The notes under the pieces were generated by a model, which was not told the origin of the DNA, did not search any database, and worked only from the letters and a program-made list of their open reading frames with translations. A program made the position numbers and the translations under genes. Positions 3,360 to 56,034 of a DNA stretch of 64,000 bases are shown here, one piece after another (position 1 is the stretch's first letter; every line of letters begins with the position of its first letter). This stretch comes from an uncultured bacterium (GTDB taxonomy: Bacteria; Patescibacteriota; Gracilibacteria; Absconditabacterales; Absconditicoccaceae). The stretch spans positions 1 to 64,000 of the forward strand of contig CALMTC010000011.1 in assembly GCA_937872535.1 (NCBI GenBank), written 5' to 3'.

Positions 3360-3790
3360 AAATTTCACTTTCAATGTGTTTGTGAGCGTCCCGACCTGCC
3401 CTCGATGAATATCGGGGAGAGACTATCATATAGAGTCGACATCGGGATTATTCTGATTTTCGTCCACTCATCGTCATTGCGCCTGCTCCGAAGAACTGCG
3501 GAGAATAGGATGAAGTCTGCCTATCACAGACAGGTGATATATGTCGATATTTTTCTATATTCATCAGAAATTATTTTCTATAGAGACGCAATAAATTGCG
3601 TCTACATTTTTGCATTCGAAATTTTTTCTGTAGGGATACAATTTTTTGTATCCATATTTTATTTGCGTCTACATTTTTTACATTTACCAGAAAAAAAGAT
3701 GAGCATTTATTTTTCAAGCGAAGAGAAGAAAAATAAGTGGAGTTTATCCCGATTCATATCGGGAACCTTTCACATTGGATGGATTACCTT
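3360..3790. repeat. Non-coding island of short palindromes and direct repeats
   Basis: About 430 bp between convergent genes, without a believable gene. At least six short inverted repeats: 3400-3417, 3486-3503, 3515-3533, 3585-3602 (GACGCAAT/ATTGCGTC), 3634-3653 (GGATACAA/TTGTATCC) and 3747-3764 (TCCCGAT/ATCGGGA). GCGTCTACATTTTT occurs twice, near 3599 and 3665. The element at 3518-3534 is related to one at 58254-58270. This looks like an accumulation of small hairpin elements; some may act as terminators for the converging genes. Confidence 0.6.
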
Positions 3791-6237: not shown

Positions 6238-6849
6238 ATGAAAAAATTTTTTTCTCTGGCTATTATTACAATTTTCTGAATAGTCAGCACTCCTATTTTT
6301 GCACAGACACCATCTTGACCAAACTCTTGAACTCCAAATACTACGACCACTAGTTCTTCATCTACCACCTCAGCAACTACAGCTTGACAAGGAGCAGCAT
6401 GAGCAGCTTCTACAGCTTGACAAGGAGCAGCATGAGCAGCTTCTACAGCTTGACAAGGAGCAGCATGAGCAGCTTCTACAGCCAACCAACCTCCAAAATG
6501 TAATGGAATAAAACTCAATACAAATGTACCGTTTGTTGGCAACTGTATAGAATTCAGTTCATCAGACACAGGAAGCTCCCAATCTATCAGCGACGACACC
6601 ACCAAAGTTACAGCCCTGAATGCTTTCCCTATCCTAGCATCATGACTTATGAAAATTCTTTTGACAGCCATTCTCGTAATCTGACTCGCTGCTATCATTC
6701 TTTGAGGTGTCATGATCGCTTACTCTTGAGCCGACTCATCATACTACAATCAAGGAAAAAATCTCATCCGAGCTGTCATCACAGGAATAGCCATCATCTG
6801 AATCTCATGAGTCATCCTCAATCTCATCAACCCAAATTTCTTCAAATAA
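6238..6849 (+). CDS. VirB2/TrbC-like pilin with tandem Gly-Ala repeats
   Basis: A 203-residue secreted or membrane protein. A signal peptide (MKKFFSLAIITIFGIVSTPIFA) is followed by a Ser/Thr-rich stretch, then three exact 11-residue repeats TAGQGAAGAAS, a Cys-containing spacer and two hydrophobic segments at about residues 138-163 and 178-198. The two-helix C-terminal half with a basic polar turn (YYNQGKNLIRA) resembles the VirB2/TrbC pilins of type IV secretion-like systems common in candidate-phyla bacteria. Many glycines are TGA. The downstream gene starts 32 bp later. Two similar pilins lie at 55.5-56.5 kb. Confidence 0.7.
6379..6477 (+). repeat. Three exact 33-bp tandem repeats inside the pilin gene
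   Basis: Units at 6379-6411, 6412-6444 and 6445-6477 are identical. Each encodes TAGQGAAGAAS with two TGA and one GGA glycine codons. The identity at silent positions implies recent expansion. Confidence 0.95.
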
Positions 6850-14220: not shown

Positions 14221-15798
14221 ATGAAAAAGATTCTGAAAACCATTTTTAATAATTGAGCAAAAACTTTCTTCAGAAACAAAAATTTTGCTAATAGAAATGA
14301 ACAAAATAATATCTTAGCAGATATTCTAGAAAGAAACTCAAATGTCGATCAGATCAAACCATTACAAGAAGACATATTAAAAACCTTAGAAGATCCAGAG
14401 AATCTTTATGAAAACTTCAGTGAACTAGAGCTCAATAATTACGCCTCAATCAAAAAAGATATAGAAAAAATGATGCAAGGTGAAGAAAATATCCTCACAG
14501 AAAATCAACTACTATCCTTCATTAAGGCAGGAGGAACAACATCAGCATGACCATGAAAATTTTTGCCATTCACAAAAGAAAGTTTAGAACAAAATCATTC
14601 AAAAGCAGGAAAAACATTAGTTCATAATTATGTTTCAAGCCATCCAGAGTGCAAAATTTTCATGGGACAATCATTAGCTCTAACAGGATGAAAACAAGAA
14701 GAAACGCAAAGTGCCTACATTTCATATCTGTTACACTCTTACTGATTTCCGAAGATTTTAAATTACTTAAAGGCTCCAAGCCAGGAAACTAATAACATAA
14801 AAAATCGAGATGAAAAAATAGATAATCTCATTAAAGAAACAATAGATAGCGACATCCGTTCAATTAGTTGAGTACCTTCACAACTTTTGACACTTTTTCG
14901 TAAAGTATTAAACCAATATAACAAAGAATACATAGATGAAATACGACCAAACTGTGAAGTAATTTTTTGATGATGAACCAAAGTATCTTTATACAAAAAA
15001 GACCTCCTCAGTTTATTTAAAAAAGATAAAAAACCAGAAATAATAGAAGTGTACAATGCTTCAGAATGATTTTTCGCAACAGAAAACAATAATCAATTAG
15101 AGTTATTAGTAAATCATTGAGTATTCTACGAATTTTTACCAAAACAGTACTACAATAAAGACTTAAATAAAATCAATAAAAATAAAATTTTAACACTACG
15201 AAAAGCAAGTCTTAGTAATGAAGAATTAGTGATGATCATCACAACACAATGATGACTTTATAGATATATACTAGGTGATACGATAAGATTTCTTCATCCA
15301 GAATTAAACTCCCCAAATAAATTCCCCATCGAGATTACAGGAAGATTAGAAGCATATTGCGATGTTTTCAATGAACATATGATAGTATCATATACCGATC
15401 AAGCAATCGAAAAAACGCTCAAAGAAACATGAAATCAGCTTAAAGAGTATACCATTGCTCCAATTTTTTCCACCATCAATCAACCTTGATCGTATGAATG
15501 TTGTATAGAATTCACAAATACCCCAATCAATCTAGAAAAATTTGCAACCATCTTTGATACAGAACTTCAAAAAACTAACGATAATTATAAAGCAAAAAGA
15601 GAAAACGGCTCTATGAGTTCTCCTACTATAAAAATTTTACATCCTGGTACATTTGAGCTATTTCATGAGAAAAGAGAAAATCTACACGCTCAGAGCAAAG
15701 TTTTGCGCCTAGCAAATGATAGAAAAATCATTGAAGAATTAGTTATAGCCATAGGAAAAGATAAGCGAAATACGCTTCCAAACTACCAAAGTAGCTAA
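14221..15798 (+). CDS. GH3-family acyl-adenylating enzyme
   Basis: A 525-residue protein with the full set of GH3 landmarks: the phosphate-binding AGGTTSAGPGKFLPFT (about residues 102-117; canonical SGTTxGxxKxIP), EVIFGGGTK, VYNASEGFFATE (adenylate-binding ASEG), LYRYILGDTIRF and the C-terminal SKVLRLANDRKI. GH3 enzymes adenylate carboxylic acids and conjugate them to amino acids; plant members act on auxin and jasmonate. The family is rare in small parasitic bacteria and the substrate here is unknown. Many glycines use TGA. It follows asnS by 41 bp. Confidence 0.85.
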
Positions 15799-19665: not shown

Positions 19666-19696
19666 AAACTCTGGAGCTTTCGTTCCAGAGTTTTTT
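19666..19696. terminator. Terminator between convergent units
   Basis: AAACTCTGGA (19666-19675) pairs with TCCAGAGTTT (19684-19693), followed by T residues. It serves ruvX on the plus strand and can also end the long leftward operon whose last stop is at 19705. Confidence 0.85.
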
Positions 19697-19704
19697 AGAT
19701 AAAT

Positions 19705-22137
19705 TTATTTGGCAGAAGACTGAATTTTTTTATCAAGAGATTCGGCAGTATCTTTTATGTTTTTCAAAACATCCTGAAGTTGAACTCGGTAATTTCTATT
19801 CTGTTCAAAGAAAACATAAAATTCATCTTGAACACCGATAGAAATACTTTTTTGAAGTAGATTTTTAGCGTTTTCAAGATCATAAGGAGGCTTATTACCG
19901 ACATAATTTTTCAAAGTAGCAAGATTTTGATTATAAGCTTCAACAGTCGGCGCATCTTTAAATCAAGCATCACTAGCTCCAGGCAATCAGATAATCAAAT
20001 ATTTATTTCTCTCAGATTTTGAATTAAGAGATCATTCATTCTGAAGAATTCACTGACTTAATTTATTTTCAGTAGCAGTATTTTTATTTTGTTGAGTTTT
20101 TTTATTTTTCTGGTTAAAAATAGGTTTAAATTTAACAATAAAATCAAAGTGAAAAACTTTATTAAGTTTTATTTTTTGCATCGATGTCTCCAAAATTTCT
20201 TTAGTTTTCTTACTCTTTAAAAGTTGTCCACTATTTTTGAGAGCAATTAAAATCGAGTTTATTTCATCAACAATTTCTTCAATATTTACAAGTTGTTTCC
20301 CAGGAACAATAGGTCTACTCTGTCATGGGACAAAACAAAATCTCATCCAAAAAGGATCAGAAGTATCTCAAATAGTTTGACAAAGACACTGAGCTTTACA
20401 GACAGAATTATTGAGAAGAGAATTATATCAATTAATTGGGTAATCAGCATCACACTTTTGAACACACATATCTACAGCTCCCCCAGGAGCAGTCAGCTGA
20501 GGATCAAAAGCTGCATTTAAAAAATCATCAGTCGTGCGAACCAAATCAGTCGTTTCACAAAGAAGATCTTTTTGAGATAAAATAAGTCAACTAAAAGATT
20601 CAGTAGCTTTACGAGTACAGCATTCTGAACTATCAGTTGTTACTTTAGCAATAAGAGGCAAAAATGATAAATCAACTTTCTGCAATGCTCTACCAGTGAT
20701 AACAACAAATCAGCTAGCTCAAGCAGCGAGAGTTTGCAAACGCCATTGATAAGTATTTCCACTACCAACATAAGAAAGAACATCTAAGCTATGACTTTCA
20801 GATACAAAAATAATATCTTGAGGAAAAGTAAAAGCAACAGCAGTATTTCTAGCATTTCAAAGTCATTTATTTGCATAAGAAATTTGAAAAGAAACCAGTT
20901 CACCAGCCTGCACAAGAGAACGACTTTTTTGAATACTATCTTCTATACGAGGACCTTGACAGTCGGCTGTTTGAGAAACTTGCTGAGTACCAATAGCTGG
21001 TAAAATGTCATTGAGAATATTCGTAAGATTTGAACTATTCAAAGAGTTATAATAATCATCTTTTTCATTTTCCAAGTCATTAAGAATATTTTGTTGCAAA
21101 GGAAACGCACTCTGGTCAACACACACATTATTAATTAAAACTCACTGAGGATTAGAAACAGAAGGAGAAACAATTCACGAAGATAGCGTTAAAATACCAG
21201 ATCACAGCGAAATAGTACCAGTAGACAAAATAAGCCCTGTTAACAAATGAGCACCGGATTGAAGAGAATTTCAGGTTAGAGGTGGGTAACCTTGCCAAGG
21301 CACAAAAACAGTAGTTAAAGAATCTAGCGCTTGATTTTGAAAAATAGCTCAGCCACCGATTCACTGAAGTCCTCCAAAAGCTTGTCAAATTGCGCCAGGA
21401 CGAGGCATCTGAAAAAATACAATTTCATCAACCTTTTTATTATTACCAAAAAGTAAAGATCAAATATTCTGAATATCAATCATCAAATCATAGCTACTAT
21501 CTTCAAGCGAAGCATTCGAAAAAATATCAGTTCATCTCGATGATTGTTCAATCTTATGATGACTATAGTAAGCAGCCTCAGAAAGATAATATGCAGATTT
21601 CATCAAATTTGTACAATTCAAATAGCTTTGAGAACTATAAAAATTTTGAGTAGGAAGAGGTGTTAAAGAAACTTGATCAGAAATATATCCATTTTTTTGT
21701 AAGCACTGAGAAAATTTAGTACAAGAAGCAATGAATCATTCCATACTACCAGCTTTAGTAGTTTTTGTATCAGCGCCAAATGGACCGAGTAATCGATTTA
21801 CCTGATTACGAATATCTGGTATAAAATAAAGAACACTTGCCACTTCAGATTCAGTCATACTACATTGATATTGAGCATTTATATACTGATAAGCAGCAGA
21901 AAAAGCTTCCTTATTACTACGAAGATTAGTCTCCACCAGCATCTTATAAGCAGCATTATAAATTCCACCAATTTCAGCAGATGAAGGAAGTCAAGCAGTA
22001 GTATTATCTTGATTCACTTTCTCATATTGTTCATTCATCCAAACATCAGGTTGAAAAAATTCCAATGCAAAAACATGTTGGACAAATATAAATCCCACCA
22101 AAACACATCATAATAAAAACTTTTTATCCTGGTTCAT
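19705..22137 (-). CDS. Secreted protein with DUF11-like domain (fifth gene of the giant-protein operon)
   Basis: An 810-residue protein with an N-terminal signal peptide (FLLGCVLVGFIFVQHVFA). Residues about 30-250 are helical. Around residues 395-490 a beta domain with DSIQKSRSLVQAGELVSFQI and VVITGRAL resembles DUF11-type extracellular repeats. A Cys-rich segment follows (VCKAQCLCQTIG). The last 200 residues are Lys-rich and probably helical. Many TGA glycines. It starts one base after the stop of the gene before it. No enzymatic motif seen; a structural surface role beside the giant protein is inferred. Confidence 0.75.
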
Positions 22138-22138
22138 G

Positions 22139-23362
22139 TTATTTTTCTTGTACATTTCTGAGTTTAAAATACAACTGATGTAAAGGAGTATAAATTTGAA
22201 CAAGTGATTTCCTAAATGCTAAAAGATCTTCATAATAAATCATCAAGCCAATATGAATAGGGAATGTGAGAAAAACATCGCCTACCATCCTTTGAAGATG
22301 AGAAACTGCCTCTCTTCAAATCGCAATCTCAAAATGAAGATCACGAATTTCTTGAGCATTTTTCTCCAATCAAGAAACCACATTTGAAGAGAGAGAAAGA
22401 TCAGAATAACCAGCGTCTTGAGATAAAATATGAGAATAAAATGTAGAAAAAAGTGAATAGAAAAAAAGTTCATTATAAATCAGATTAAGAAATCTAGTCC
22501 AGTGATTTTCATTATTAGTAAAAGCACAAGCTAGCGGGTCAAAAGAAGATGTAAGTAAATCAGCTTCTGAACAACGAAGATTTGATTTGCTCATAATTTC
22601 ACGAGCATTAAGAAAATCAAGCTTATCAGTAATTTTTTTTGAATTCTTAATATATTCCAATAAAAGTGCATAAGTTTTTGGATGAGAACATTGATCAGAT
22701 TGACTTTCAGATAAAGTATTTTTTCTAACATAAATTCAATCATCACCACACAATTTAGCTCAAAAAATAGATTTACTTCCTTTCCCAAAATATCTGTCAG
22801 AGAAATCCGTTACCAATTCATCAAAAGGTTTATCTCCATATCAAAATAAAGAAGAAACTTTTAAATCTCAATACTCATTCATAAGAGCATTAAAAATACC
22901 AGGAACAAGTGAACGAAAATTACAAGCATTCATAGAACCATCGGGATTACAGCCAGCATCCAAATTAGTCACTACTTTAGATCGAGAAGAGTTTTTCACA
23001 TAACTAGAAAGCGATGGATGAAAAAAAGTATCTGCATATCAAATTTGTCAGCACAAAGAATACAAAAAAACAGAATTTCAAGGTTTATAAAAAGCAGATC
23101 ATCATTGGTCATAATTCAAAAATCAGGCAGACAAATTTTCTCACTGCAAAACAGCAGAACAAAAAATTTTCACAATTCATTTTTTAGTTTTCTCCTGAGA
23201 ATATTGAGAAATAGAACGAGTAAGATCAGTTACAAACATTCACTTCTTAAGAGAAAAATCAGCAACCTGAGATTGTTCTTGAGCAAAAACAGAAACATTC
23301 AACAAAAAAAATAGTCACAACAAAGAAATTTTTTTCAAAACTATTTTTTTTCTTAGAAACAT
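22139..23362 (-). CDS. Secreted hypothetical protein (fourth gene of the operon)
   Basis: A 407-residue protein with a signal peptide (KISLLWLFFLLNVSVFA), then a mostly helical, aromatic-rich sequence with several scattered cysteines (for example FCSAVLQG, CNPDGSMNACNF, NLRCSEADLL), suggesting disulfide bonds outside the membrane. A late hydrophobic stretch (VGDVFLTFPIHIGLMIYY) may touch the membrane. It lies 25 bp after the upstream gene and 1 bp before the downstream one. No family recognised. TGA codons divide the frame into many short pieces under the standard code, which is why it is easily missed. Confidence 0.72.
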
Positions 23363-23387
23363 TTTTATTTTTTACGATAATAAATTT

Positions 23388-24830
23388 TTAATACCAGCAT
23401 TTAGAAGGAACATTAACACATTGATTTTCACAAGAACTTCAAAGATGCTTTACAATACTAGATCTAGCAGATTGTTTATCTTGTTTTGATCAAAGCAAAT
23501 CAATTCAATCATAGACAAAGATACTGATTTCAGGCACAAGAGCTGTAGTAGTAGCAGGATCGAGAAAAGCAGCTTGAGCAAAATCATTTTCTTGACTAGC
23601 CAAGACACTAGCCATATCTTGCTCCAATGCCATCTGAAAATCAGTCAACAATCTATCCTTCATAAGAGTAGAAGCTGGAGTTCAAATAGATTGTTCTCTG
23701 ACTGATGATTTAATCTCTTGTACATTCTGATCAGCTAAAGGAGTATTCCAGCTATAAAAATCTTTCACATCTAGCGCTGCATCTTTCACAACTTTACCTA
23801 TATTTCTCATTTTTTCAGCCATATTTTTCAGACCAGGTAATCATGAATCAGAAGCATTCAAAGCATCAATACCATACTGTTTTCTCATAAGATCATTTTG
23901 CCTTCTCGTAAAAGCATCATCTCTACTTTTTTTACTAAAAAGTTGTTTCAGTCTTTTCAAAGAAGCCTTATAAACATCTACCGATTTTTTAAATCCAGAA
24001 AGTCATTTTTGTAAAATTTCTTCTGTCCTTTTTCCAAATTTTTGTAAACTCTGAGAACACATAGTTCCAGAAATACAACTATATTTTTGTTTCATTTGAA
24101 TAAAAAAATTTTCATCAAAATCAAAATATATATCTTTAGTTTTTTCCGAATAAGAAATAGTATCATTACGAAATTGAGAAATATCATGAAATACAACAAA
24201 TCTCTTAAATCTAGAGTTCAAAGCCCAGATCAAAGAAATTACTTCACTACCAGAAATTTTATAAGGAAATAAAGAAGCCTCAGCAAAAAATCAGCCTTGA
24301 GATTTTCTCTGGGAACCAATTGCACTATTTATTTTATCCACAACACTATCATCCAAAGGTCACATAAGATCTCTCTGAGAACCAAGTTCCAGAAATTTAT
24401 CAGTAAACTTAGTTTCCACAATCATAAGTTTTTTATAATCTCTAATGACAGCTTTTCATCTAACCAACACAGCAAACTCTAGTGGCACTCAAGTTACTGT
24501 CTGTACCGAAAAAGCAACCAAAGCTGTCAAACTACCAAAAGTAGTCTGAAAAGCACTACTAATTCACTTAAGAGATTGAGAAAAAGCAGTAACTAATCAT
24601 CCTCCAGCATTACTTTGAGATGAAGCAACTGGCTGCAAAGAACCAAGAACAGCTTCAGAAAAATCAATATAGCGTTGAAATTCAGGAGAAGAAGTAGAAC
24701 AAACAGCACAATCATTTTCCACAGCGAATCCAAAAAATGGCATAATCAAAAAGAAAAGCGAAAGAACAAAAATAAAGTGAGAAAATAATTTTTTGAACAT
24801 CAGAGATAACGATGAGATTAAAGAGAACAT
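23388..24830 (-). CDS. Secreted or membrane hypothetical protein (third gene of the operon)
   Basis: A 480-residue protein. A hydrophobic signal (KKLFSHFIFVLSLFFLIMPFFGFA) precedes CAVCSTSS. Residues about 90-125 form another hydrophobic segment (LTALVAFSVQTVTGV). The remainder is helical and basic (LKRLKQLFSKKSRDDAFTRRQ), ending SSCENQCVNVPSKCWY with four cysteines. ATG at 24830 lies 8 bp after the previous stop; ATG at 24800 would give a more typical signal peptide and cannot be excluded. No family recognised. Confidence 0.72.
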
Positions 24831-24838
24831 TGTTTAGT

Positions 24839-25696
24839 TCATTCCATCACTTTTTGAACCACAGTAGCAAACGATGAATCCATATCAGCAAATTTTTCCA
24901 TCAAGGTGACTCGCCTATTTTGGAGAAAATAATCTGACATATAAGAATGAAAACCATCGGTCAATATTTTAGAAGATTGATACAAAGAAACAGTTTCAAC
25001 ATAATCTACTTCTCTCTTATAACGATCAAAAGCCATAGAATTACAGCGGTTTTTAATAGTATTGCTATTCGTAACTCAAAAACCAAGACTCGTAAAAGCT
25101 TCATTTTGAACAATACAAGAAGCAGCAGCACAAACCTGTAAATACCTATTAGCAAGTCAAGCCTCAGAAATCGGTTTCAAAGAAAAATTTGAACAACCAA
25201 TCTGAGAGCCATCTTTAAATAAATTTTCTGGTTTTCGGTACTTCTGAAAATAAGCAAATATTTGCTCTGGTTTACTTCATTCAGCACTTGTTGCTAAATC
25301 TGTTATAGTATTTCTTCGTTCCATTCATCGAGAATTTAAAACAAGAGCATCATAAGAAATACGAGGATCTCCATCTAATTTTCTAAATCCCACATCTATC
25401 AAATGATCAAAGAAATATGGTGACTCTGGTACTTCTGAAGGCAAATTATTACTATCCGCACATTGATTCTTACCAAGTTTTTCTTGACAACAATAAGACC
25501 ATAAATGAACAAAAGCAACCTCTAAATCGTTTTGAGAATAAATTTGGGAATAGCGAGAAACCAGAGAAGAAGGTAAGTTAATTTTTCCTCATTGAACAAA
25601 AGTCGTTACAAGATTACAATCAGAAGTCTCCTCTGCTCTCACAAAAGACATCGACAAAACAACACCCCCTATCACCAAGACTAATTGCCTGATCAT
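24839..25696 (-). CDS. Secreted Cys-rich hypothetical protein (second gene of the operon)
   Basis: A 285-residue protein with a signal peptide (MIRQLVLVIGGVVLSMSFVRA) and several cysteines in the mature part (SDCNLV, WSYCCQEKLGKNQC, GCSNFSL, CAAASCIV). Disulfide-bonded and extracytoplasmic by inference. Its start overlaps the end of the giant gene by 16 bp, so translation is probably coupled. TGA glycines are scattered through it. No known domain seen. Confidence 0.72.
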
Positions 25697-28600
25697 ACAA
25701 GAGATTTTGCATCAAAAGTGATTGATAAAACCTGACTTCATCACAAATTTGTAATACGATAAAGAGTACTATTATTTTGATAACCATAAGTTCAATGATA
25801 CTGAGTGTGATAAGGAGCTGGAACATACAAAGATCATTGAGATCAGATATACAACTCACAATCACCATAAGTTTTCTTGAGACAAGATCATCCATCAAAA
25901 GGTCAGTAAACCTGTCAACTAAGAGGCTGTAAACTGTATTGGTTATCAAGAATCTGAAGAGGATTCAATCCAGCCAAATTTTTAGCTTGAAGTTGTATAA
26001 TAAATATAACCTTATTATCTATTTTGTCAAAAATTTGGACTGTAGGATAATAGCTTTCAAAAGACATTCTAGTTTCCAAACGAAGCTGATAAGCAGGGTT
26101 AATAATAATTTGAGTAGTTTTACCATCAATAGTAACCATTTCATCACCATTTTGAGCATACAAAACAATATCCTTACCAAGATCAAAAACTCTTCCAGTA
26201 GCAAAAAGTTGGTTTTCTTTCACAGAGAAAAGAGAACGAGAAATTCATAAATCTACACCCGTCAAAGTTTTCCATACCCCATTTCTCAATCTTTCATATT
26301 TTACAGAACCAGTGTCTATATCTTGAGAGAGTTTACTAACCAAGGAGCCAAATTCACCATTTTCAAAGTTAACATCAGTCAAACTAAGCATAGGAGAATC
26401 TATAGTCAGAGTAACTTTTTGCTTCTCAATATTACCAGCAAAGTCTTGAGCCGAAAAGATATAATCACGCTTTTGTAAACCTGTAAAAAATAATCCAGTC
26501 AAAGAAATTTCTCCACCCTGTCCAGAAGCGACAAGAGAACCAGAATATTCTATCCAGCTTTTTTCTACAGCCACGTTATCAGACCAAACAGCATTCAAAT
26601 CATAAGCTGTATTGATAAATCATTTCAGATTATATCATTGAGAAACTAATTGATTAGTTTTTATCCTAAATAGATTTGCTTGCAAAATAGGTCACTGATC
26701 ATCAGCAGCTATTTGCCTTCAAGCTACGATTTGTTGAGACCAAGGTCAATTTTTTTCAAACCTGACAAGCTGCCCATTATTTGAATAAACTGGCTTCAAA
26801 GGAGCAATTTGTAAATAATATCGCTTTCTATCAAGATCTTCAAGAGCAACTCAAACAGTTTCCAAACCAGAATCAAAAACCTTTAAAGAAATAATTTCCC
26901 CATCAGCTTGAAGACTACTTATAGTTTTATCCAATTCCTGAGGAAGCAAAAGACGAGCCTGATCAGATCCAGTAAGCGACGGCAACACAACAACAAAATT
27001 TTTATCCAATAATCATGGAGATACAAAATTTAATTCCTGCTCTTTATCATGGAAAACATCTACTCTTTCAACCAATCTAATAACATAACCATAATTGTTT
27101 CCATCATGAGACCAAGAAAAAGAAAGAGTATCAGCATTTTGTCATTTCATTGCAAAATTTTTCACCTCCCAGGTTTGGTCGTAAATCTTGACTGATAATC
27201 AATTAAATGAAGCATAACCATCATCAACTAAATCTTCCAAATCCTCTAAATCACGCAAAGATGGTAATCCATAAAAAGTTGAAGAAAAAGTATTTTGACC
27301 ATAGTTAAAATTTTGATCAGCATATTTAACATAAACATTATTTGAATCTCGCATCACTAAATCATTTTTCTGATCTTTATTCACATCACTCAAAAAGTTA
27401 TTTTCTGCAATTTGTTCAACAAAAACTGATGAGTCGACAACATTAGTAAATGTATCAATTACTCAAGTTACAAAGCCTCCTCCACTCAATGGAATTTGAT
27501 CCAAACCAGTACTAGGAACAAAAATTCCATTCACATACTGAGCAAGATCAATACCAAAACTAGATTGTGAAGAAGCTGAAGAGATAGTTGAAGAAGTCGT
27601 AGTAGCTCACTGAGCCAGTAAAGGAGCTTGCTGATCACCATAAGCGATCAAAGCCTGATGAACATCACGATCAAGTTCAGAAACATAAGTTTTTGCCTTC
27701 TGATAAGTTCCATCATCCATAGAAAGCTGCACAGCACTATAGCGAGAAAGAGCAGCTTTATAGCCAGAAACCATCTGAGCATTGAGTTCTAAATATGTCT
27801 TTTCAGGATGAGGTTGATTCAAAAGATCTAGTGTTTTATCCTTTGTAGTAAATAAAGGAGCAGAATAGTTTTTTTCTTCATCATGATCAGCTACTAATTT
27901 GTTTTTTTGCAAACCATTCAAAAAGTCATCATAAGATTTTTTAATAGTTTGATTAGTTTCAGAAAGATTTTTTTGATATGTTCTTACATCTTCAGCAAGA
28001 GTCTGATAAACACGAGCCACTCACTCTCTATTTGGTTCGACATCACTTTGGTAGTTCACTTCGTCCATCAAAGCTTTCAGTTTATTAGTTTGAGCCTGTC
28101 ATTCGACCTTAGTAGCCAAGATTTTAAGTTCTTTTTTCAGAGTATTTTTGACAGTTTGATAATCATCATTTTTACCAGACTCATAAAGCGCCCCATAATC
28201 AAAACTCAAATCATCAGAATCATATTTACCAGGTTTGTAATCAAAACTAGTAATATTAATATCAACATTTTGTTGTAAAGGATCTTGTATTTGATCTTGA
28301 TAAAACTTATTGAGATTTCTAGATCATTCATTTATTTTACTTTCCAAAATTTTTCAAGGCTTTTCAGTTCGTTGATTCACCCCATCTGCAATACTTTTTA
28401 TCACAGCATAAACTTGATCAAAATTAAATCTTAAATTAACAAAAGTATCTACTCTGATGTCCATTCACTGCAAAGGAGTTGGATTTCTTGTAATTTTTAA
28501 ACTATCGAAAGGATTCACTTCCCAAGTCCTTTGAGTAAGTTGTTCAATTTTTGATTTCACTCATTTTTCTCAAACAAGTCCGATATTTCATTTCATAATA

Positions 28601-31600
28601 CAATAAATTGTTCCCAAAAATTCGAGTACTTTGAGAGAGATATTGATACTTGGAGTAATTTTGGGAATTTTTGGTGGAGGTGGCAATGTTGGCAAATTAA
28701 TATTTATAGACGGCAAAAAAGAAGGTAATTGAGGAAGATTTGGAGGTGTTGGTAAAATAGGCAAATCAGGTATAGAAACAGATGGCAAATCCAAGAAAGG
28801 AAGATCAATAGTTCACAAGTTTAGAGTAAGTAAATCTATAGTTACTTGAGGAGGTTCTGGAAGATTTGGCACTCTTGGTAATGGTATAGAACTTGGAACA
28901 AAATTAAATTTAGGGAGCAAGACATCCATCCCCAAATCCATCTTAGAAAAATCAAGATAAATATTTGGTATTTTGATAGGAGGAATTGGAATCACTGGGA
29001 GATTAATACAAAGCATACTAAGAGAACAAGCATAAGAATCATAGTTATCATTTTTACACTTCGCACATTTACTTTGTCGATTCGTAGAAAAATCAATAAT
29101 AGCTTGCCATGTTTTAAAGATACCAACAAGCAAAATAATTGTATCAACATACTGTTCAAATCTTCTAGCATTGATATCAAACCATCTATTGAGATGAGAA
29201 ACTATTCATTCAAGAATATCAGTCAACTCAGTCAAATATCTATCATAAATATGAATCCAATCATAAAGTTTAAGAGGAAATTGTTTATATTGTTCCAAAA
29301 CTTTCATATTCTGCTTGATCACTCTCATCAATTGCTGGGCATTTCAAAGTGTATTAGTGAAATAATTAACATAATTAGAAAATCTATCAATACAACCCTG
29401 TCTACTAAAATCAGTTGGTTCATTAGCACATTTATTAGGGATATTAATATTTTTTGCAGATTGAGAAATTTTTTCATTAAGACAAGAATTTTGTTTTTTC
29501 TTATCAGTAGATAGGAGGCGACATTGTAAGACTCCTTGTTGAGATCATTCAAGTTTAGCCAAACTAATTTCTTTGGTACAGATTTTTCTATCGATACTAG
29601 ATTCTGGAAAATTAGCCTTACACTGCTCCAGAGCAGCCTTATCAGTAGCATTATACAGATCAAGCCCAAGTAAACCTAAAACATTAGCTCATAGATCAAG
29701 CCAATTATCAAGAATCACTTCATTTCTCTTTATCCAATTATCAAGAAAAGCAGTATATCTGACGATATCTTCAGAATAAATAAACGGAATAGTAACAGTC
29801 ACATCTCTGGTATTCATATTCACCAAAGGTACTTCTTCAAACATTCTTGAAATAGCATCAAATGGATTTGAAACTTTATTTCATCGATTAGTAAGCTGAG
29901 CCTGTTGAATAAGATTATTTTTTGACCAGTTCATTATTTTTTCAGCAGGCTTACCTTCAAGATTATTTTTTCTATTGATTTGAATATCAGCCTCATTTTT
30001 AGATTCATCCATCAAATTTTTTAAATTATCAAGACGAAGAGAATCAAAACCTTCAGCCACTTGAGAAAAATCTGGGAAGTAGACAGCAATAGTCATACTA
30101 GACATATTATTCACGATATATTTTATTTGATTATCAAGCCATTGTTGAATAATACACTTTGGTAGTCATTTTACATCACCAGCCAATATTTTCAAAGTAG
30201 CAGGCTTTCCACCATTTAAAGTAACTGGAGTTACATCAGCATCTCTGAGTGAAGTTCTTTTGACTGGTTGTTTATCAATCATAAAAAGTCAGCCTCATAC
30301 AGTATTTGAAGGAAGAGAATTATTGTAACCAATATTATTTGGAGCTGGAGAAACGACATCAAAAGGACTTTGTTTTTTTGTTTGACTACCAAGAGATAAA
30401 GAAGGATTAGTATCATACTCATCAATATTTTTACAAACACCAATTTCTGATAAATCTTTTTGCCAATCATAAATCTGATTAGCATCAGAATCTCAATTAT
30501 CATTTCCACAATTACTAGGAAGAGAAAGAGCTACCACAATACAGTTTCCAGCTATATTCCTAAACGGCTGAGGAATATTTTCTCCAACCTTCATAGGCCC
30601 AAGACACAAAGCAACTCCAAGTCCCATAGTCAAAGTAGGAGAAAGATAGAGTCTAATCATAGAAGGATATTGCCCTCCAGGAGCCCAGTAAAATGAGTCC
30701 ATTGGAGATTTAAGTCACCAAGGAAAAGGAATAGGACCAGCAGGAGTAACCAAAGTACCAGGGAAAAAGAAAGCAGGCAATCACTTATCAGGCATCAACT
30801 TACATCCAAAAAGATTGAAATCTCAAGGAGACAAAAATGCCATATTAAAAGGCAAAGGCAATCCTCCACAGCTATTTTTTCAGATCTTAAATCCGTTACA
30901 CAATCACTGCAAAGTTTTTTGCAATCAAGCCTCTATTTTTTCATTAATATCATTCAAAAATCCAAAAGAAACATTCAGTGATGCAGCTCAGTTATTTTGA
31001 AAAAGATTCGTCAAACTAAACTGTTCCAAAACACTACTAATTCAAGGCATATTAGTAAGAGACTGCTGTGCAATAGAATTATTAAGACCCGACATAAAAT
31101 TATTTTGAGCCTGTTGAGAATTATTTTGCAATGAATCAGTATGATTTTTTACAATATTTTGCAGATTAATAAAATTTTCAAGATAATTTCTTACATTCAG
31201 CTGATAATGTCCTATAAACTCAAAAAACATCTTCAAACAACTATCAGTAAGAAAAATTTTTATATCTGGATAAATATCCGTATCAATTTTTTTCACATCA
31301 ATTCTAACTGTCTGCGTCGGCTGATATTCCAATTCATAAGAAAAATTTACATCTTCTCACTGCTTTATCGGAAGGTTATCAATCATAAATTCATAATCAG
31401 TTCAAGGAGTCAAAATCATTTTTGAACCAGAATTTGTTGTTCCACGATCAAAAGATTTCATAAGACCATCATCGTCCACATCAATAATCCAAGGTCATTG
31501 AATTCTATCAAACAAAGAAAGTGTCGTATTTTGTTTTCCTATGAGATGAAAAGTAACACGAACCTTATCTCACTGTGACAAAATACCTCAGTTAAGATCT

Positions 31601-34600
31601 TTATAAATCTTATAAGCTTCGACAGCATCATTTGTTTCTAAGCGTTTTATGGGAACATAACGAACATCATCCAAACTCATAGCTTCATAAAAAGGTTTTT
31701 GATTGATTGGAGATTCGACATATTTCATTAGCTGACTAGCTCAGCTTTGCACCAGAGAATTTACATTAAACTGTCCAACAGCATTCATCAACGAACTACT
31801 AGCGACATTTTGAGAAAATTGTTGTATCTCATCAGCACTCACAGTACCATCATTATTAAAATCCATAGAAGGATCTTGAGCTGGTCAGCCAATAGATGGT
31901 AGTTGATGAGAAATAGGATTATTAGCTTGTACTCCATTAGAATCAATAGGCTGCAAAGGCTCAGTTAATCAAGCCCAGCGAACGAGACTATTATCATAAA
32001 TTTTTTCTCAATCAATAATTTTAAGTGAAAAATTTTTCACTACTTTCACTGCTCCAGCTTGCCTACTTTTCCATCCAGCATCACAGCCAAAAGAATCTGT
32101 ACTCAGATAATGTGGTCCAGCAGAGCTACTACCACCATAAAAAATCTTAATAGATCAATCTGAATCATTGGTAATAATATCAAGCTTATCATCCAAGTCC
32201 ATATCCTGGAAAAAAATCTGATAAACCTGACTCAAATCTTGCGGTCATCATGGAACATCAAGACAAACATTAGTTCCATCGACATCAAAAATTCACTCAT
32301 TATTTCTATAAACTCTTAGTTTTTGAGCTGGAGTTTTGACAAGCAAATCAGGATATCCATTCCCATCAACATCTCAGACATTCAAATCTTCAATTCCATC
32401 AGCAATAAGCAAAGCAGGTCCCAAATCTGTAGAAGAGACATTCCCTCCATACTCTTTGAGAAATTTCACCGTACCATCATTATAAATAATAGCCAAATCT
32501 TTTTGTCCATCAGCATTAAAATCTATCTCTTTGACCAGATGAATAGTTTTTGTACTATCAGAATAAATTGTTTTTCCAATTCATCAGTCAAAATCAGTAC
32601 TAGTAATCGGATCATTACTATCAATTCTCTTCAAAGCTGGATCACCAAAATTAACGACAAATTCAGATCCAAAAGCAAGAGAAGATTCTCCAACTGGTTG
32701 ACCAGCACTAAAAGCAGTAATATTTTTATACTGAGCTTGAAAAGCAATATTTTTCTCAGGATCTATACTATCTTGAATAGAAGAAACCGTATCAGAATCA
32801 GCAGCCAATACCACATCAATCAAAGAAATTCCAACACCACGCATACCATTAGTACTACCTTCAGCAAAAACATCAATAACACTATAAACAGAATGATCAA
32901 AAATCTGAACAAGATTATCTTTCTGATCTCCAATAAAAGTATCATCTCTGGAAAGCAACAAAGAACCTATTTTTTTACCTTCAAAAGAAACATCAAATAA
33001 ACTATGTCCTAAAATTTTTTCATGTGAATATAAAATTTCAACTCCTGGTTTGAGAAAATTTTGAGAAAAATCGACATATGTTTCACCATTGATAACTACT
33101 TTATATCATTGCAATAAATTCGTCTCTATCTCATCATCAGTAAGTTCTGGAACATAAACCACACTATTACTCAAGAAATCATTGAGAGTCACATTTTCAA
33201 GAAGTGGTTTTGATCTAAAGACATAGTCAGAATAAGATCAAAGAGCAGCACGCCCAACTCAGTCAATAAGATAAGAAAATCCAGAAGAAGAAACTTCCAG
33301 AAAAACTCTCTGATCAGGAGAAACATCAAGAGTAAGATTATTAGCTATCACAAAAGGAGTTTGTCGAACATGTGACGGATCAACAAGCATCGTCGTCACA
33401 GCCAACAATTTTTCAGAACGAGTAATCATCTCTGTCACTACTCCGCTATAGTCAGAAAAAAATCACCACATATTTCCTCGATCTGCACCAAAAAGATTCA
33501 GATACATAACATTGAGTTTATCAGTTGGCAGAAAATTATTTTTTACAAATAGTGATTTATATCATGGTTTTTGATTTTCGAGAGCAACTCATTTCAGATA
33601 AGCATAAATATATCACTTCCCTCCAGGAGCAAGACCTTGGAATGGAAAAGAAGTTTGTCACTGTTGAACAGGAACACTAAAAAGTGTAGATCCACTAGAT
33701 GAAAGCGATCCAATTAGTCAAATCTGAAGATCAACAGGATCAATAATTTGATTCATCCAAATATCTTTGACAACCACCAAAGCAGCTTGATGAGATCAGA
33801 TTTTCATTTGATCAGAATCAGTAATCACCTGAACAATTTTTGGAGAAGAAGGCTCAACTACAACAGGAATAGAAATATCCTGACTACCTGGAACACTGAT
33901 AACAATCTCATCCTGCCCAGCCTGAAAAGAAGGATAGAAATATACAGTAACAGTACCATTAGATGCCAAAAAATTAGTATGAGAAACAAAAGTTTCTTGC
34001 ACAAAAGATTGGATAGCACCACTAACAATCTGTTCAACTTGACCAGTAGCAACAGTTCACGGCTTCAAAAGAGCGTTCTTAGTTTTTACAGAAACTTGAG
34101 AATAAATTCACTGCCCAGCCAAATCTTTCACATCAATACTCAAAGCCACCAAATTATTTTCAGCAATCTGAGAAAGTCATTGAGAATCGACACTCACCAA
34201 ATCAGAACCTGCTTCAGGAAGTTTATAACTAAGCTGATTCACAGCTACACCTCCACGCGAAACACGGACCGTTCCATCAACAAGCTGAATAGTTTTTTGA
34301 TTAGCTGGCAATCAGTTAACAAATCAACTCGTACTTGGTTGAATAGAAATCTGATCATAAGAACTATTTCCACCACTAAGCGAACTACTATCATACAAAA
34401 AATATAAATTTTCAAACGAATCAACATCAAAAGAACTATAAAAACTACCATCATATAAATTTTTTCCACTGGCTACTGCTACAAAATAATTATCAGAAAC
34501 TCTAGAAATAGTATTTCCTCGTTTATCATAAGCATTCACTACAAAAGGCAAAGATGCTCATCTCAGTATTTTAGAAGAAGGACTTACCATAGAAATAGAA

Positions 34601-37600
34601 TCTATAGCTCAAGGAACAATAGAAATAGTTTGAGGTAAAATAATACAAGCCTGTCCATCACAGATTTTGACATCCAGCATCAGTAATCAAGCTTTCTTAG
34701 TAGCCAAATCCAGATCAAGTAAGAGCGGCTGAGAAAACAAATCAACATCGCTAAGAGAATAAGATTGCTGACAAAGATTTTTAGAATTGATAACTATACA
34801 ATTATTTCAAGTAGAAGAAAAACTAATATCTACAGAGCCAAAATCTTGACTACCAGCATTGAGTCCGAGAGAAAAATATTTTTTCTGTTCATAAGATTCT
34901 ACAGGTTCTACATAAAAGTTATCAGCGACTTCAAGATCAGGCACCAATCCATCAAATTTTTGCATAAAGCGAGGATTGATAAAATCCCAAATACCTTGAA
35001 GCTTATTTTTTTGAACATCAGAAAGACTCAAAAGTAAATTTTCATTATCAGATTTTGCCTGAGCAATACGACTCCATTGATCAGAAAACTTACCAATATT
35101 TAAAGCATAGTCTTGTATTTCTGATCATAAATTTTGAGGATTTTGATCTACTCAACGAAAAATACTTCCCAAAGCTTTGATAGCATCAGTTACAAAAACT
35201 GGTCCTTGAGAATTTTTATAATCAATAGTCAGAATTTGAGTTTTTAGAGTTTTTTTAAGCCAACATTTTAGAGCTTCTGGCCACTTATCCAGAGAAACAC
35301 TTCAGTCAGCGTCTAAAGAACATTCTGAACGATCTTTTTGAATTTCTAGATCTAAATCGTCATTAATTCTAGGAGCTACATCTTGATCATAACGAGCTTG
35401 AGCAGATTGAATTCTTTGAATAAATGACGGCACTTGAGACTCATCCTGAATATAATCAAATCCATCAGAATTTAAATAAGCCAATTCATATCATCAACTT
35501 TGATAAAAAGCATTACGCAAAGCTATTGTCCCAGAAGACAATCAATCATTAAGACCATACTGAAGATATCTCATCACATGAGAAATTTTTGGATTAAGAT
35601 CAAAAGATTGTTTTTTTGCTTCTAAGTCATCAATCACACCTGTCGATGAAGTTTTTTGAGACCATCAAAGATTTTGATAGTACAAAAAGTAAGCAGCGTT
35701 ACTGATAGTTTCTTCACCGAGAGTATCAATAAAATAATCCACCGGCATCAAATTATAAGTACGATTTGGTGTAGCCAAAGGATCAGACACAGAAAGAAAA
35801 TCAAAAGCAGATTGATTTTGAGTATAAAAATTTTGGCGTTTCGCTTGCTGTTGAGTAAGAGATGAATTATAAAGAACAACTTTTTTTCTTAAATAATCCT
35901 TAATACTAGAGTTAATTTCATCTGGAGTTTTAAGAGTCTGTACCAAACCATCTCTTTTAAAAACCTCTACATTATACAAATTTGGATAAACAAATTTCAC
36001 TAAGTCTCAACCAATTCATTGAAAATTAACATATCTAACACTATCAACTGGTCTATCACTAGTATACAAATTCATACCAGTTATTTGAGCAACCGTAGGA
36101 GCTTTCATTTCATTTCTCGTATCAAAAGTTTTATAATCATACTCATAAGTATTTTTATAATTTCATCAAATTGTTATAGTTCCTCCAAGAACAGAAACTT
36201 GAGCACACTGATCATCTCTTACTGTTTGATTAAAGGAAGTTCAGTTTACTTTAATAGTTACCTTTTCACCATTATCAGGAAATTTATTTTTAAAGATATC
36301 AAAAAATTCAACATCACTATAGGGAATTCTACCATCTATTCTCTCTTGAGGAAAACAATATGAAGCAACTACTTCTTCCCCTGGAGAACTAAAACTTAAA
36401 GTCAAAAAATCAAGCGGGTCATTAACTGTCTTATAACCATACTGTAATTTTATTCTCTGGATACTGGAAAAATCTTTGTAGCCCAAATATGAATAACCAG
36501 TAGTAACTTCACCTCAGACAGTAAGTGGTCCATCGAGAGAAGATACTGTTCTTGAAGGTCAAATCAATTTAGCTCCAGCGATATCGTAAATCGGCCCTCC
36601 AGCCAATCCAGCAGGTGAACTAGTCACAGAAGGATTTCGAGTATATTTATAATCAAAGTTTTTTAGCGAAAGATTCCCATCAAAACCTGTGATATTAAGA
36701 GGAGTTACTCCACCCCAATAATACCAAAGAAATTTATCCATAGCCATAACTTGAGATTGACTACCATAGTCACTAGAACATTCAGCAGGTGGAGCTGGAG
36801 TGAAAGATCACTGATCTCTAATCTGACACTCTTGATAACACTCATTGAGTCAGTTCGGATCTTGTCTCGAATTATAGACAGCAATATCATCTTTAGATTT
36901 ATCAAAATTATATCACTTATGAGCTTCGATTTGTCTATCATTTAAGCCATAAGAAGCACCTACAGACCAAAGAGAAGAATCAGTTTGAACATCACTTCCA
37001 GATATAATATCTTCGCCAGTCAAAACATCCAGAGAAGAAAAATTTTTATAACTACCTCTATAAATCGAAAGATCCTGAACACTATTTACATCAGAAGCTC
37101 TTTTTCAAAAATAAAAGTTTTCATATCTTCCTTCTAAAAGCAACTCTCAAAAAGTACAAGCTATAAAATTACTTCCCTGTACTCTATTTTTATATTTTTC
37201 ATAAATCGTCAGAATAGGAATTTTCATAAAATATTTTTCCTGCTGAATTTTATCATCCAAAGCTTTTTCAAGCTTCATCGAAATTTCAGTAAGTGGCTGA
37301 GTAAAATCCTGCTCAGCTCAAAAATTTCATAATAAAAGTGCATCTTTAGAAACAATTTTTTCCAGATGCGAATCAAACTGCTTATATCTTCCACCAGCTA
37401 AAATATTGTCTCTAGCACGGCTCAAGGATAAAGTTCAAAAATTCTCAGAATAAGGTTTTACAAGTTCAGAAACCATTTTTTTGAGAAATAAAGTCGGTGT
37501 AGCTTGTGATGAAGTGGTAGCTGGCATCTGAGAAGCAGCAGCATTCATCGTAGTCAAATACTGAGCAGCCATCTGACTAGTTGGATCAGTTCATTGTGTA

Positions 37601-38406
37601 TCAATAGAATTCAAATCAGTCATCAAAGCCGAAACTCCATCACCACTAGGTCACTTAAAATAATCAGGAATCAAATTAGTAAATCTATGAAATCAAACAT
37701 CTTCAGAAAAAAGAAAATTATGAATATAGTAAGGTAAATTAGCAGAATTAAAACTTTTTTTAAGTTCTACAAAATCATCATACCAAATAGCTTTATCAAT
37801 AAAAGCAGCCGGCTGAGCAGCATATTTTCTTAGTTTTTCAAAATAATCAAGATAAGCATTTGTTCAGCTTCCAAGTTGAATCAATCAATGCCAAATTTCT
37901 GGTACACTATAAGGTTTATCATTATATTCAAAAAACTGGCTCTTTTCATCGTAAACATATTTTTGATCACGAAAATCTACATAAGGAAAAACTGAAGGGA
38001 AAATAAATCAATTTTTTTTAACAACAGGGAGTGGCATATCACCTATCAAGACAATACCGACTAAATCACTAGTTTTATCTTTCACTCATTCAAAATACAT
38101 ATTTTCCAAAATCTTCACAATATCTTTTGCCTTAAAGTTTTTTTTATCCAAAGGCAATACCAAAGCTTTTGAATCAGAAAACTGAGATTGAAGATAATTT
38201 CTTGCATACCAAACTATTTCTTTTTTCAAAGATAGATCATCATAAAGATCAGCATCAACTACTACTGCTATAAGATGGTTAGGTGATATAGTTGGTTCAG
38301 CATTAGCAAATTTTGGCACAAAAAGAAATACATTAAGTAGCAAAGAAGCCACATAAATAGCCAAAAATGAGCTTATAGTTCTTTTATCAGAGAAAAAATA
38401 AAACAT
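25681..38406 (-). CDS. Giant secreted surface protein, about 4,241 aa
   Basis: One frame stays open for 12.7 kb when TGA is Gly; all the standard-code fragments share the same phase. A signal peptide ends FANA-EP near residue 37. Residues about 40-150 (VVVDADLYDD ... IVLIGDMPLPVV ... FPYVDF) loosely recall the fold of C25 peptidases, but no catalytic dyad is evident. Residues about 1950-2310 hold VCBS/FG-GAP calcium loops (DFNADGQKDLAI, DVDGNGYPDLLV, DMDLDDKLDII) and an EF-hand DFNNDGTVSADE. Another loop, DVNKDQKNDLVM, is near residue 3672. A Pro-rich rod (residues about 3135-3270) and Ig-like strands near 3940 follow. A giant adhesin or contact structure is the likely role. The start could be GTG at 38409. 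Confidence 0.85.
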
Positions 38407-38441
38407 CACCCATCGACAAGAAAAAATAAAATCCTACAATG

Positions 38442-38469
38442 AGTATAATGATGCCGAAATGAGTGTCAA
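38442..38469 (-). promoter_or_regulatory. Promoter of the giant secreted-protein operon
   Basis: On the minus strand TTGACA (38464-38469) and TATACT (38442-38447) are 16 bp apart, 36 bp before the ATG at 38406. It is the only strong promoter I found for the 18.7-kb leftward operon. Confidence 0.75.
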
Positions 38470-38610: not shown

Positions 38611-39588
38611 ATGAACACACAAACTGCAACAAATATAGCAAAAACAGCAGCAGATGGTACAAGTAGCGTCGTAGAAAATAACACTTGACGATTAGAACAG
38701 TATATCGGCGATGGACTTTTTGCATTTTTTGTAAAATTTGCAGGAGTTTTTGTTGTTGTCGTAGTGATGATTATGATTTCAAAAGCCATAGCAAGCATCA
38801 TAAGAAAAAAAGTTATTGAATCGAGCATACTGGAAAACAAAAAATCAAGCGATAAAATAGGAGATCTTATAAGCGATGTTGTATTTTATAGTCTCGTAAT
38901 TTTCTGCATATTTATAGGTTTTGAGCTTTTATGATTTGATGTAAGTTTATTGCTGTGATGAATCTCATTTTGAATATGATTAGCTTTCAAGGAAATACTA
39001 GGAAATATGATTGCTGGAATTATGATCTTATCAACAAAAGAAATTAAATTATGAGATATTATTGAAGTTCAAACAGATTGATGAGTTTTTTGAAGAATTG
39101 AAGAAATCACTATTAGATATACCACAATCAGAACATTAGATTTAAGACAAGTTATCATCCCAAATACTACTCTAATCACAGTTCCTATAAAAACTTATAG
39201 TGCTGAAGAAACTGTGAAAGTAAAAACAAAAATCAGAATTCACTACGATTCAGACCTAAAAAAAGCAGAAAAAGCCATAGTAGATTGATTAAATTCACTA
39301 GAGTTTACAGTAGATAAAGACAAAACAAAAGCTGTGCTCACAGAATACTGAGACAGCGAAATAATTATGACATGAATATTTTTCTTCAATCCAAATGCTT
39401 GATTATTACTAGAATATGCAGTCTGAGAAGCAAATCACAGAGTAAGAGATTACCTAGAACAAAATTGAATTGTCATACCATATCCACATGTTACAGTCAC
39501 AGTAGATCACAACGATACCGATCTATTATGAACTATGGTATATGCAAGCAAAACTTTACATAAACAGTCACCATGAACAACTCACTAG
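38611..39588 (+). CDS. MscS-family mechanosensitive channel (1)
   Basis: A 325-residue small-conductance mechanosensitive channel. Two or three N-terminal transmembrane helices end in the pore-lining TM3 motif LLLGGISFGIGLAFKEILGNMIAGIMIL (two segments, residues about 115-142), followed by the beta domain GDIIEVQ, with RYTTIRTLDLRQVIIPN, and the C-terminal alpha/beta domain. It releases solutes on hypo-osmotic shock. More than ten glycines are TGA, including pore glycines, so the gene is invisible under the standard code. The stop TAG overlaps the next gene by 16 bp. Confidence 0.9.
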
Positions 39589-40481
39589 CAAACAATCAAA
39601 TCATAGAATCTTCACGACAAATATTGGAAAATCCAGTAATCAATTTTATGATAACACTTTTATCTGCTGCTATATCAGTTTTCATTTGATATATCATCAT
39701 AAACTACATCACACAAAAAGTAAAACAAAGAATAGGAGAAAACTCACTAGAAGATAACGACGAATATCAAACAAAAATAGCAAATTTGATAGGCACAATA
39801 ATTTTCAATATTTTAATGGTTTTCAATGTCCTCCTCTGATTTCAAATACTTTGATTCAAAGTAGGAGTTCTCATGGGATGAGTAGCATTTTGAATCTGAT
39901 TTGCAATGCAACAAATACTAGGAAATATGATTGCTGGAATCATGCTCATAACAAATTCAAAATTCAAAATAGGAGATATTATTGAAGTAAAATCATTAAA
40001 AGTATTTTGAAAAATCCAAGAAATAAAGATCAGATATTCGATCATAAAAACCTTTGACAGAAGAAGAGTAATTATACCAAATTTACAATTTATGAATGAG
40101 TCAATCAGAACATTCAACTCAGAAAAAATAATTAGAGGTTACATAGATTTTTATGTTTGATTCAAAGATAATCTAGAAAAAGCAAAACAAATAATAAAAG
40201 ATGAAATAAACAAACACGAATACACTATAGAAAAAGAATACACCAAAGTAGCTATAAGTGAATTTCGAGAAAGTGGAATTACATTAAGAGCATTTTTTTA
40301 CTTCAATCCCAAAGGTTGAAAATCTGGATACATCATAAAATCTGAGCTAAGAAAATCGATACCTGAAATTTTATACGACTATAAAGAAATAAACTATCCT
40401 TACAATCATACTTCCATCAGCGTTGACCATAATGACCAAGATATTTTAGAAAGTATAAACATTCTGGGTAAAAATATATAA
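39573..40481 (+). CDS. MscS-family mechanosensitive channel (2)
   Basis: A 302-residue paralogue of the preceding channel. The pore motif is VLMGGVAFGIGFAMQQILGNM (two segments), followed by KIGDIIEVKSLKVFGKIQEI and RRVIIPN. The start ATG lies inside the end of the first gene in another frame, so the two are translated from one message and may be coupled. The shared pore motif but otherwise low similarity suggests an old duplication. Ends TAA just before a bidirectional terminator. Confidence 0.9.
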
Positions 40482-55550: not shown

Positions 55551-56012
55551 TTAGATAACACTCACTTGAGTAAAAACAGTAAACAAATAGCTAATAATAA
55601 ACCAGCTTAAAAAAAGAATCCCAAGTGCAATAGCTGTACCTCTCACCATCTGCTTCGCCTTATTAAATCATTTTTCCTGTTCAGCAAAAAACATACCATA
55701 AAACCCATAAATCAGTACAATAACAGCAATAAAACTAACAAGTCATAAAAAATAATTAACTACATCTCTAACATAAGCACTAGCTGGTTCATCTCCATAG
55801 GAAGCTGGCAAAGGAAATCAAATTGCTTCGAGAAGTATACCAATAATACTGTTAGAATTATCTACGACAACATCGTTAAAAACTTCTCAAATCTGATGGC
55901 TAGTATTAGCCTCTTGCGGACTAACTTGCACAAACGGAAAAGGTGTTTGTTGCATAAATCAAACTCACAAAAAACCGAAAGAAGCAAACAAAATGGAAAT
56001 CAAATATTTCAT
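55551..56012 (-). CDS. VirB2/TrbC-like pilin (2)
   Basis: A 153-residue protein with a signal peptide (MKYLISILFASFGFL), a polar stretch and two transmembrane helices: VVNYFLGLVSFIAVIVLIYGFYGMFF and MVRGTAIALGILFLSWFIISYLFTVF (each given in family order), joined by the basic turn EQEKGFNKAKQ. This is the two-helix plan of VirB2/TrbC pilins. Its start lies 22 bp after the stop of a paralogue. Confidence 0.75.
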
Positions 56013-56034
56013 AGAAATCACAGTAAAAAATAAA

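Follow-up and report, generated by a model that had tools for sequence, protein, structure and literature searches.

The fibrous surface of Vampirococcus lugosii and its fixation to the host have been ascribed to giant proteins of up to 4163 amino acids (Moreira et al. 2021, PMC8080830). In the available part of that article, these proteins of the Absconditabacteria are assigned to the membrane by inference, carry DUF11/integrin-like domains and are thought to serve host recognition; they are treated there singly, and the same part describes no operon, partner proteins or class-wide family. The 4163-residue protein is a likely candidate for the counterpart of P1, the giant protein of the locus reported here. 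Large proteins are also recorded for Candidatus Peregrinibacteria, which is among the bacterial phyla richest in proteins of more than 5000 residues, with no functional assignment (PMC11573180).

Other described systems share parts with the locus. Gingipain R (RgpB), of peptidase family C25, is similar in fold to the first ~165 mature residues of P1, but P1 has no demonstrated catalytic dyad and its gingipain-like part is small within 4242 residues. Genes for the type IV secretion system (T4SS) and PF18895 pilins of Patescibacteria are neighbouring genes in part of the class; however, none of P1 to P5 matches a known T4SS component, P4 matches no fold in the PDB, and VirB4 loci lie elsewhere. 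As in FG-GAP/integrin-like and DUF11 surface proteins, FG-GAP repeats are present in P1 and a DUF11 domain in P5, but these are small parts of the two proteins, whose conserved parts match no family. The five genes had been put forward as an undescribed system whose products may make up a multi-subunit surface complex, a reading that the present results support. As whole proteins they match no known family, and of the defining features of C25, T4SS and type IV pilus (T4P) systems, an invariant His-Cys dyad and the VirB4/VirD4/VirB11-type and PilB/GspE ATPases are missing from the cluster. Searches of family, PDB-sequence and phage libraries name none of P1 to P5 as a whole protein (PHROGs gave a stray weak match, for P2 only), and no description of the operon was found in the open-licence literature searched.

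A leftward five-gene locus read with genetic code 25

The window, by which we mean the whole stretch of 64,000 nucleotides analysed, is contig C11 of a 1.25-Mb genome (23 contigs; 98.8% complete). Its genes are open only with genetic code 25 (NCBI table 25), in which TGA is read as glycine; under table 11, P1 contains 111 in-frame TGA codons and P2 to P5 contain 7, 12, 16 and 24, respectively. The named relatives of P1 are candidate division SR1/Absconditabacteria records, including RAAC1_SR1_1. Read with table 25, five genes run leftward at 19705-38409 in the order and on the strand given in the preliminary description. ORF calling was mechanical and the start codons are uncertain. Plausible starts are 25696 for P2, 22137 for P5 and, ambiguously, 24800, 24809 or 24830 for P3, and the gaps of -16, +8, +25 and +1 bp reported earlier are compatible with plausible start codons. 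The features of the locus are as follows.

38442..38469, minus strand: promoter-like site TTGACA-16-TATACT before P1, 11/12 match
25681..38409, minus strand: P1, giant secreted protein of 4242 aa; table-25 ORF with 111 in-frame TGA, starting at GTG 38409 or ATG 38406
37804..38298, minus strand: P1 residues 38-202, N-terminal domain resembling gingipains (peptidase C25), probably without catalytic activity (AF2 and Foldseek)
32320..32523, minus strand: P1 residues 1963-2030, FG-GAP-type repeats (PF13517)
28420..29232, minus strand: P1 residues 3060-3330, Pro-rich signature segment (alignment A7)
26003..26030, minus strand: promoter-like site as strong as the one before P1, within the last part of P1, ~310 bp before P2, 11/12 match
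24818..25744, minus strand: P2, ORF of 308 aa, secreted, conserved cysteines, no known family; likely start 25696
23388..24830, minus strand: P3, 480 aa, secreted, C-terminal CxxQC-type cysteine cluster
22139..23362, minus strand: P4, 407 aa, secreted, predicted all-helical, conserved LRNVQ end, homologues across the class
19705..22203, minus strand: P5, ORF of 832 aa; likely start 22137
20674..20922, minus strand: P5 residues 428-510, DUF11 domain in the variable middle (PF01345, E 4e-7)
19666..19693, minus strand: terminator-like hairpin after P5, 10 pairs, T-rich tail

The terminator noted earlier after the last gene is present as a 10-pair stem with a T-rich tail (19693-19666). The site at 38442-38469 had been called the only strong promoter, but an equal 11/12 match lies within P1 at 26030-26003. 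The region holds two 11/12 matches against 1.35 expected by chance, and in relatives the sequences upstream of the giant match a promoter at 7-10 of 12 positions at best. Since the matches in the region are no better than chance, the single-promoter argument was dropped. Position favours 38442-38469 over 26003-26030 as the promoter.

Two tandem genes for MscS-type mechanosensitive channels (38611-40481, plus strand) lie divergent to P1 in the window, and a pair of membrane-protein genes that is similar by appearance directly follows P5 in L046 and L057. Elsewhere in the window (14221-15798, plus strand), this probably host-dependent bacterium with its reduced genome encodes a GH3-type protein in which all three GH3 domains are present. 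The GH3 family is best known from plants.

The giant protein and its four secreted partners

A signal peptide was recognized in all five products, as had been proposed; each is of the Sec type and has an AxA-like site. Past the signal peptide, no convincing further transmembrane segment was seen in P1 to P5; among the helper orthologues of relatives, an N-terminal hydrophobic stretch was present in 144 of 146 and an internal transmembrane segment in none. The labelling of P3 and P4 as membrane-associated was not upheld, as neither has a transmembrane segment and P4 is predicted to be all-helical with no membrane segment beyond its signal peptide. Because no membrane anchor was seen in P1 to P5, their release into the medium is possible.

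P1 orthologues within the family are about 3600-4400+ residues long. The AF2 model of P1 has pLDDT values mostly of 81-92 across residues 38-202 and was too poor to interpret past residue ~202. Foldseek matched the first ~165 mature residues to RgpB (1cvr/4ief) with a probability of 1.00 but an E value of 0.02-0.03, and the rmsd to RgpB was 3.4-4.6 Å over about 160 columns. Sequence profiles of the PDB gave no significant relative for the N-terminal region or for the whole of P1, and PF01364 was matched at 0.001 in one of 27 P1 orthologues. The preliminary description saw no enzymatic motifs in the five genes; this needs amending, as these ~165 residues resemble a peptidase-C25 (gingipain) domain. 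None of the His/Cys pairs expected of the C25 catalytic dyad is invariant across the 27 orthologues, so catalysis by the domain is unlikely, and judging from its sequence it is probably inactive as a protease.

These results bear on the idea of a secreted gingipain-like protease system, in which the giant would be a C25-type peptidase and its partners chaperones or inhibitors. Such a system could explain the resemblance to RgpB and the weak PF01364 match in one orthologue. It sits poorly with the missing invariant Cys-His pair in the 27 orthologues, and confident modelling covers no more than the N-terminal portion of a C25 domain. We regard a protease system as improbable, and an active protease was rejected for want of a catalytic dyad.

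Further along the giant, PF13517 (FG-GAP) was found in 7/7 long orthologues scanned, with the P1 of the window falling just below the Pfam cut-off (one or two repeats, none scoring above it). The Pro-rich segment is the most conserved part of P1, with a mean column identity of 52% in alignment A7. The C-terminal region is also conserved among orthologues and is not swapped. This last observation weighs against a contact-delivered effector, that is, a toxin-like giant with partners serving as delivery or immunity factors. The host-dependent and partly predatory lifestyle of the group, the very large size of P1 and the T4SS neighbours in some families would suit an effector, but no toxin domain was found, there is usually one match per genome accompanied by orthologous partners, and the partners are secreted, whereas immunity proteins of that kind are cytoplasmic. 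An effector is very improbable, and the toxin reading was rejected as no toxin domains were present.

Conserved cysteines occur in each of P2, P3, P4 and P5, a pattern that would fit disulphide-bearing secreted proteins. The modelled P4 (pLDDT 81.8, pTM 0.80) is all-helical and has a ~75-residue C-terminal helix (328-402). Foldseek found no fold match for it in the PDB (best E 0.75), and PDB sequence profiles yielded no significant relative for P4 or P5. Because P4 matches no solved fold, structural support is lacking for a VirB5- or pilin-type P4, and the proposal that P4 is VirB5-like was set aside as unsupported. P5 consists of a conserved N-domain (about 2-276), a variable middle and a conserved Cys-containing C-domain (about 560-830). 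The DUF11 domain ascribed to it earlier is genuine, with PF01345 matching above the Pfam cut-off (E 4e-7). P5 orthologues match mainly on the N- and C-domains, not on the DUF11-bearing middle.

Gene order in the family and across the class

The preliminary description had staked the unit on synteny in relatives, and gene order does recur, both in the family and far beyond SR1. P1 was found in 43 and P5 in 44 of the 49 genomes of the family, the giant usually once per genome. A search with P2 gave matches in 18 further genomes of the family, and no match in the 16 genomes of the same sample that belong to other families. P1 and P2 are adjacent in most family genomes, and P3, P4 and P5 are contiguous and in order in nearly all. 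ORFs show the five genes side by side and in one direction in G000, G004, G005, G007, G017 and G048, the giant being truncated in some of them where the contig or the region stops, and in G050 the same arrangement is seen by match coordinates only. The P1-P2 and P3-P4-P5 modules are convergent neighbours in, for example, G012, G018, G022, G041, G042, G045, G058, G061 and G062, and are distant from each other in other family genomes; the genomes behind these arrangement counts are partly fragmented, and the loci were selected by matches, not at random. At one locus (G011, L012 5986-6942), a P2 orthologue stands by itself among housekeeping-type genes and the giant is on another contig.

Where P3-P4-P5 is separate from the giant, P3 is preceded by a gene whose product has a single hydrophobic segment, at its N terminus (L045 11533-12426, L046 9926-10921, L056 5042-6106, L057 9571-10509, L042 5780-7306 and L044 9730-11226). 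The encoded protein is a candidate membrane anchor that is missing from the cluster of the window.

The Pro-rich segment of P1 (3060-3330) was used as the marker for class and phylum searches. This giant signature was present in 166 of 242 genomes of the class, usually once. In the phylum sample it was present in 21 of 380 genomes, all 21 from the same class; none of the roughly 343 genomes sampled outside this class had it. It was absent from the near-complete genomes listed of f5 and f8, and several families of the class have no giant. The matching frame in most other families spans 3000-5800 codons (7874 in one case) and is free of TGA, and in f1, f14 and f22 the giant frame carries internal TGA. 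The giant thus occurs in both UGA-stop and UGA-Gly lineages, and we therefore infer that the gene predates recoding. It may also explain the enrichment of proteins above 5000 residues in Peregrinibacteria, if the families sampled here can be equated with that group.

Giant loci were taken from 16 other families (20 loci). In 11 of the 16 (f4, f6, f10, f16, f18, f20, f21, f23, f26, f27 and f28), the giant is followed contiguously by four helper genes in the order X, P4-like, P5-like and Z. Their products are ~200 aa (X), ~215-360 (P4-like), ~490-910 (P5-like) and ~330-630 (Z) in size; nearly all have a signal peptide, and the genes overlap or are separated by short gaps (-4, -10, -1 and 0 within the unit of L149). 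The same tail was recovered at loci reached through P4 (L129, L132, L142, L147, L149, L150 and others), and this four-helper tail is absent from the giant loci of f3, f7, f11, f14 and f22. HHalign paired P4 with the second helper gene (93.0%, E 3e-7) and P5 with the third (98.3%, E 2e-14). The best match for Z was P3 (46%) and that for X was P2 (7%), the latter not significant alone, so that the P2-X pairing rests on position. Cross pairs scored at most 5% in the helper-pairing test with the X/Z unit and below 10% in others, with several of the profiles built from 4-38 sequences. After Z, a short helix-turn-helix-like (excisionase-type) gene lies on the opposite strand in L130, L132, L139, L142, L162, L170 and L171.

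Could unrelated secreted-protein genes simply have come together by chance? The promoter matches do not exceed chance expectation and the unit is split in many family genomes, both as would be expected of such a collection. The synteny results contradict it, as contiguity in a fixed order recurs across genera and families with overlaps or gaps of a few bases, and even the split modules (P1-P2, P3-P4-P5 and P5-P3) are conserved. We consider a chance collection scarcely credible. Because many genera and families share the gene order, the locus represents more than chance clustering, and P1 to P5 almost certainly form a conserved secreted system.

Pilus-type neighbours and the proposed extracellular assembly

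In 13 P2 loci of the family, the next gene encodes a ~160-aa PF18895 T4SS-pilin protein that carries a signal peptide as well as two hydrophobic segments. In the genome of the window, the PF18895 gene is at another locus. In 4/4 five-gene genomes tested, the pilin homologue is found elsewhere, close to an elongation factor P-like gene (L050 1053-1541, L051 9901-10446, L052 9299-9820 and L053 10118-10648). This neighbourhood carries less weight because PF18895 genes are numerous per genome. Matches to the T4SS-pilin profile also occur in the window at 55551-56529 (minus strand) and 6238-6849 (plus strand), and the genome has several such paralogues.

Homologues of the partners are dispersed in f22 and f14. 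The P4 homologues of f22 (97.1% to P4) follow a VirD4-like coupling ATPase, which was found beside P4 homologues only in this family; several genomes also have a multi-domain PF18895 pilin gene in front, giving the order pilin, VirD4-like ATPase, P4. P5 homologues were identified in f22 by hhalign (97.6-98.9%), and at 8/10 of these loci the next gene encodes a secreted protein of 407-447 aa that matches P3 (96.9%, E 1.6e-10, 306 columns). A GspE/PilB-like ATPase, a type that scores below the NCBIfam equivalog cut-offs, lies just upstream of P5-P3 in L196 and L202 of f22 and adjoins the P4 homologues (95.9%) of f14. At two giant loci of f14, PF18895 genes are located 6-10 kb downstream. Genomes in which P3, P4, P5 and the giant have moved apart thus still retain all four.

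The cluster of the window itself contains no pilus or T4SS gene and no PilB/GspE ATPase, and VirB4/VirD4/VirB11-type ATPases were found neither in it nor among the flanking genes tested. A VirB4-type gene is on another contig, and the VirB4 loci examined in the family contain none of P1 to P5.

The main rival to a host-contact assembly is a structural envelope layer, a fibrous coat or S-layer-like wall outside the peptidoglycan with no specific role in host contact or with a pilus. The giant is near-universal in the family, usually single-copy and large, with no toxin-like tip, and PMC8080830 attributes the fibrous surface of Vampirococcus to giant proteins, all of which would suit a coat. However, a coat would not account for the pilin, VirD4-like and GspE/PilB-like ATPase neighbours in part of the class, a lattice protein has no obvious need for four conserved partners, and the giant is missing from several families of the class. 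We consider an envelope layer unlikely.

Overall we favour, guardedly, an extracellular assembly for host contact in which the giant is a rod or adhesin that works with pilus/T4SS-like machinery. The parts of this reading differ in strength. A scaffold or adhesin outside the cell that serves host contact is probable. The host-contact role is suggested by the lifestyle of the group and by the giant proteins to which the fibrous Vampirococcus surface is attributed in the published account. Mechanical coupling to a pilus/T4SS machine, to which the gene neighbourhood points, is possible but is held with less assurance. We propose more tentatively that the five components constitute a class-defining extracellular machine, coupled to pilus/T4SS-type motors, which would be a host-contact structure of Gracilibacteria/Absconditabacteria older than the code change; equally tentatively, it would comprise a giant of about 4,000-8,000 residues and four dedicated secreted partners.

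In the favoured host-contact assembly, an ancient operon would produce a secreted multi-protein structure in one class of ultra-small Patescibacteria, the Gracilibacteria in the broad sense together with Absconditabacteria/SR1. The giant, as a string of domains comprising a gingipain-like head, FG-GAP repeats, the conserved Pro-rich stretch and a long C-terminal part, would form an elongated rod or adhesin outside the cell. Its four partners, each with cysteines, may dock on the giant or aid its assembly outside the membrane, and the structure may be held by, or work with, the type IV pilus/T4SS-like machinery of the class during attachment to host cells.

The occurrence of the unit in UGA-stop and UGA-Gly lineages makes it a marker older than recoding. 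To our knowledge, no annotation is possible for most surface proteins of these ultra-small bacteria. The gene set described here is a direct, testable candidate for part of the machinery by which they recognize, hold or feed on their hosts.
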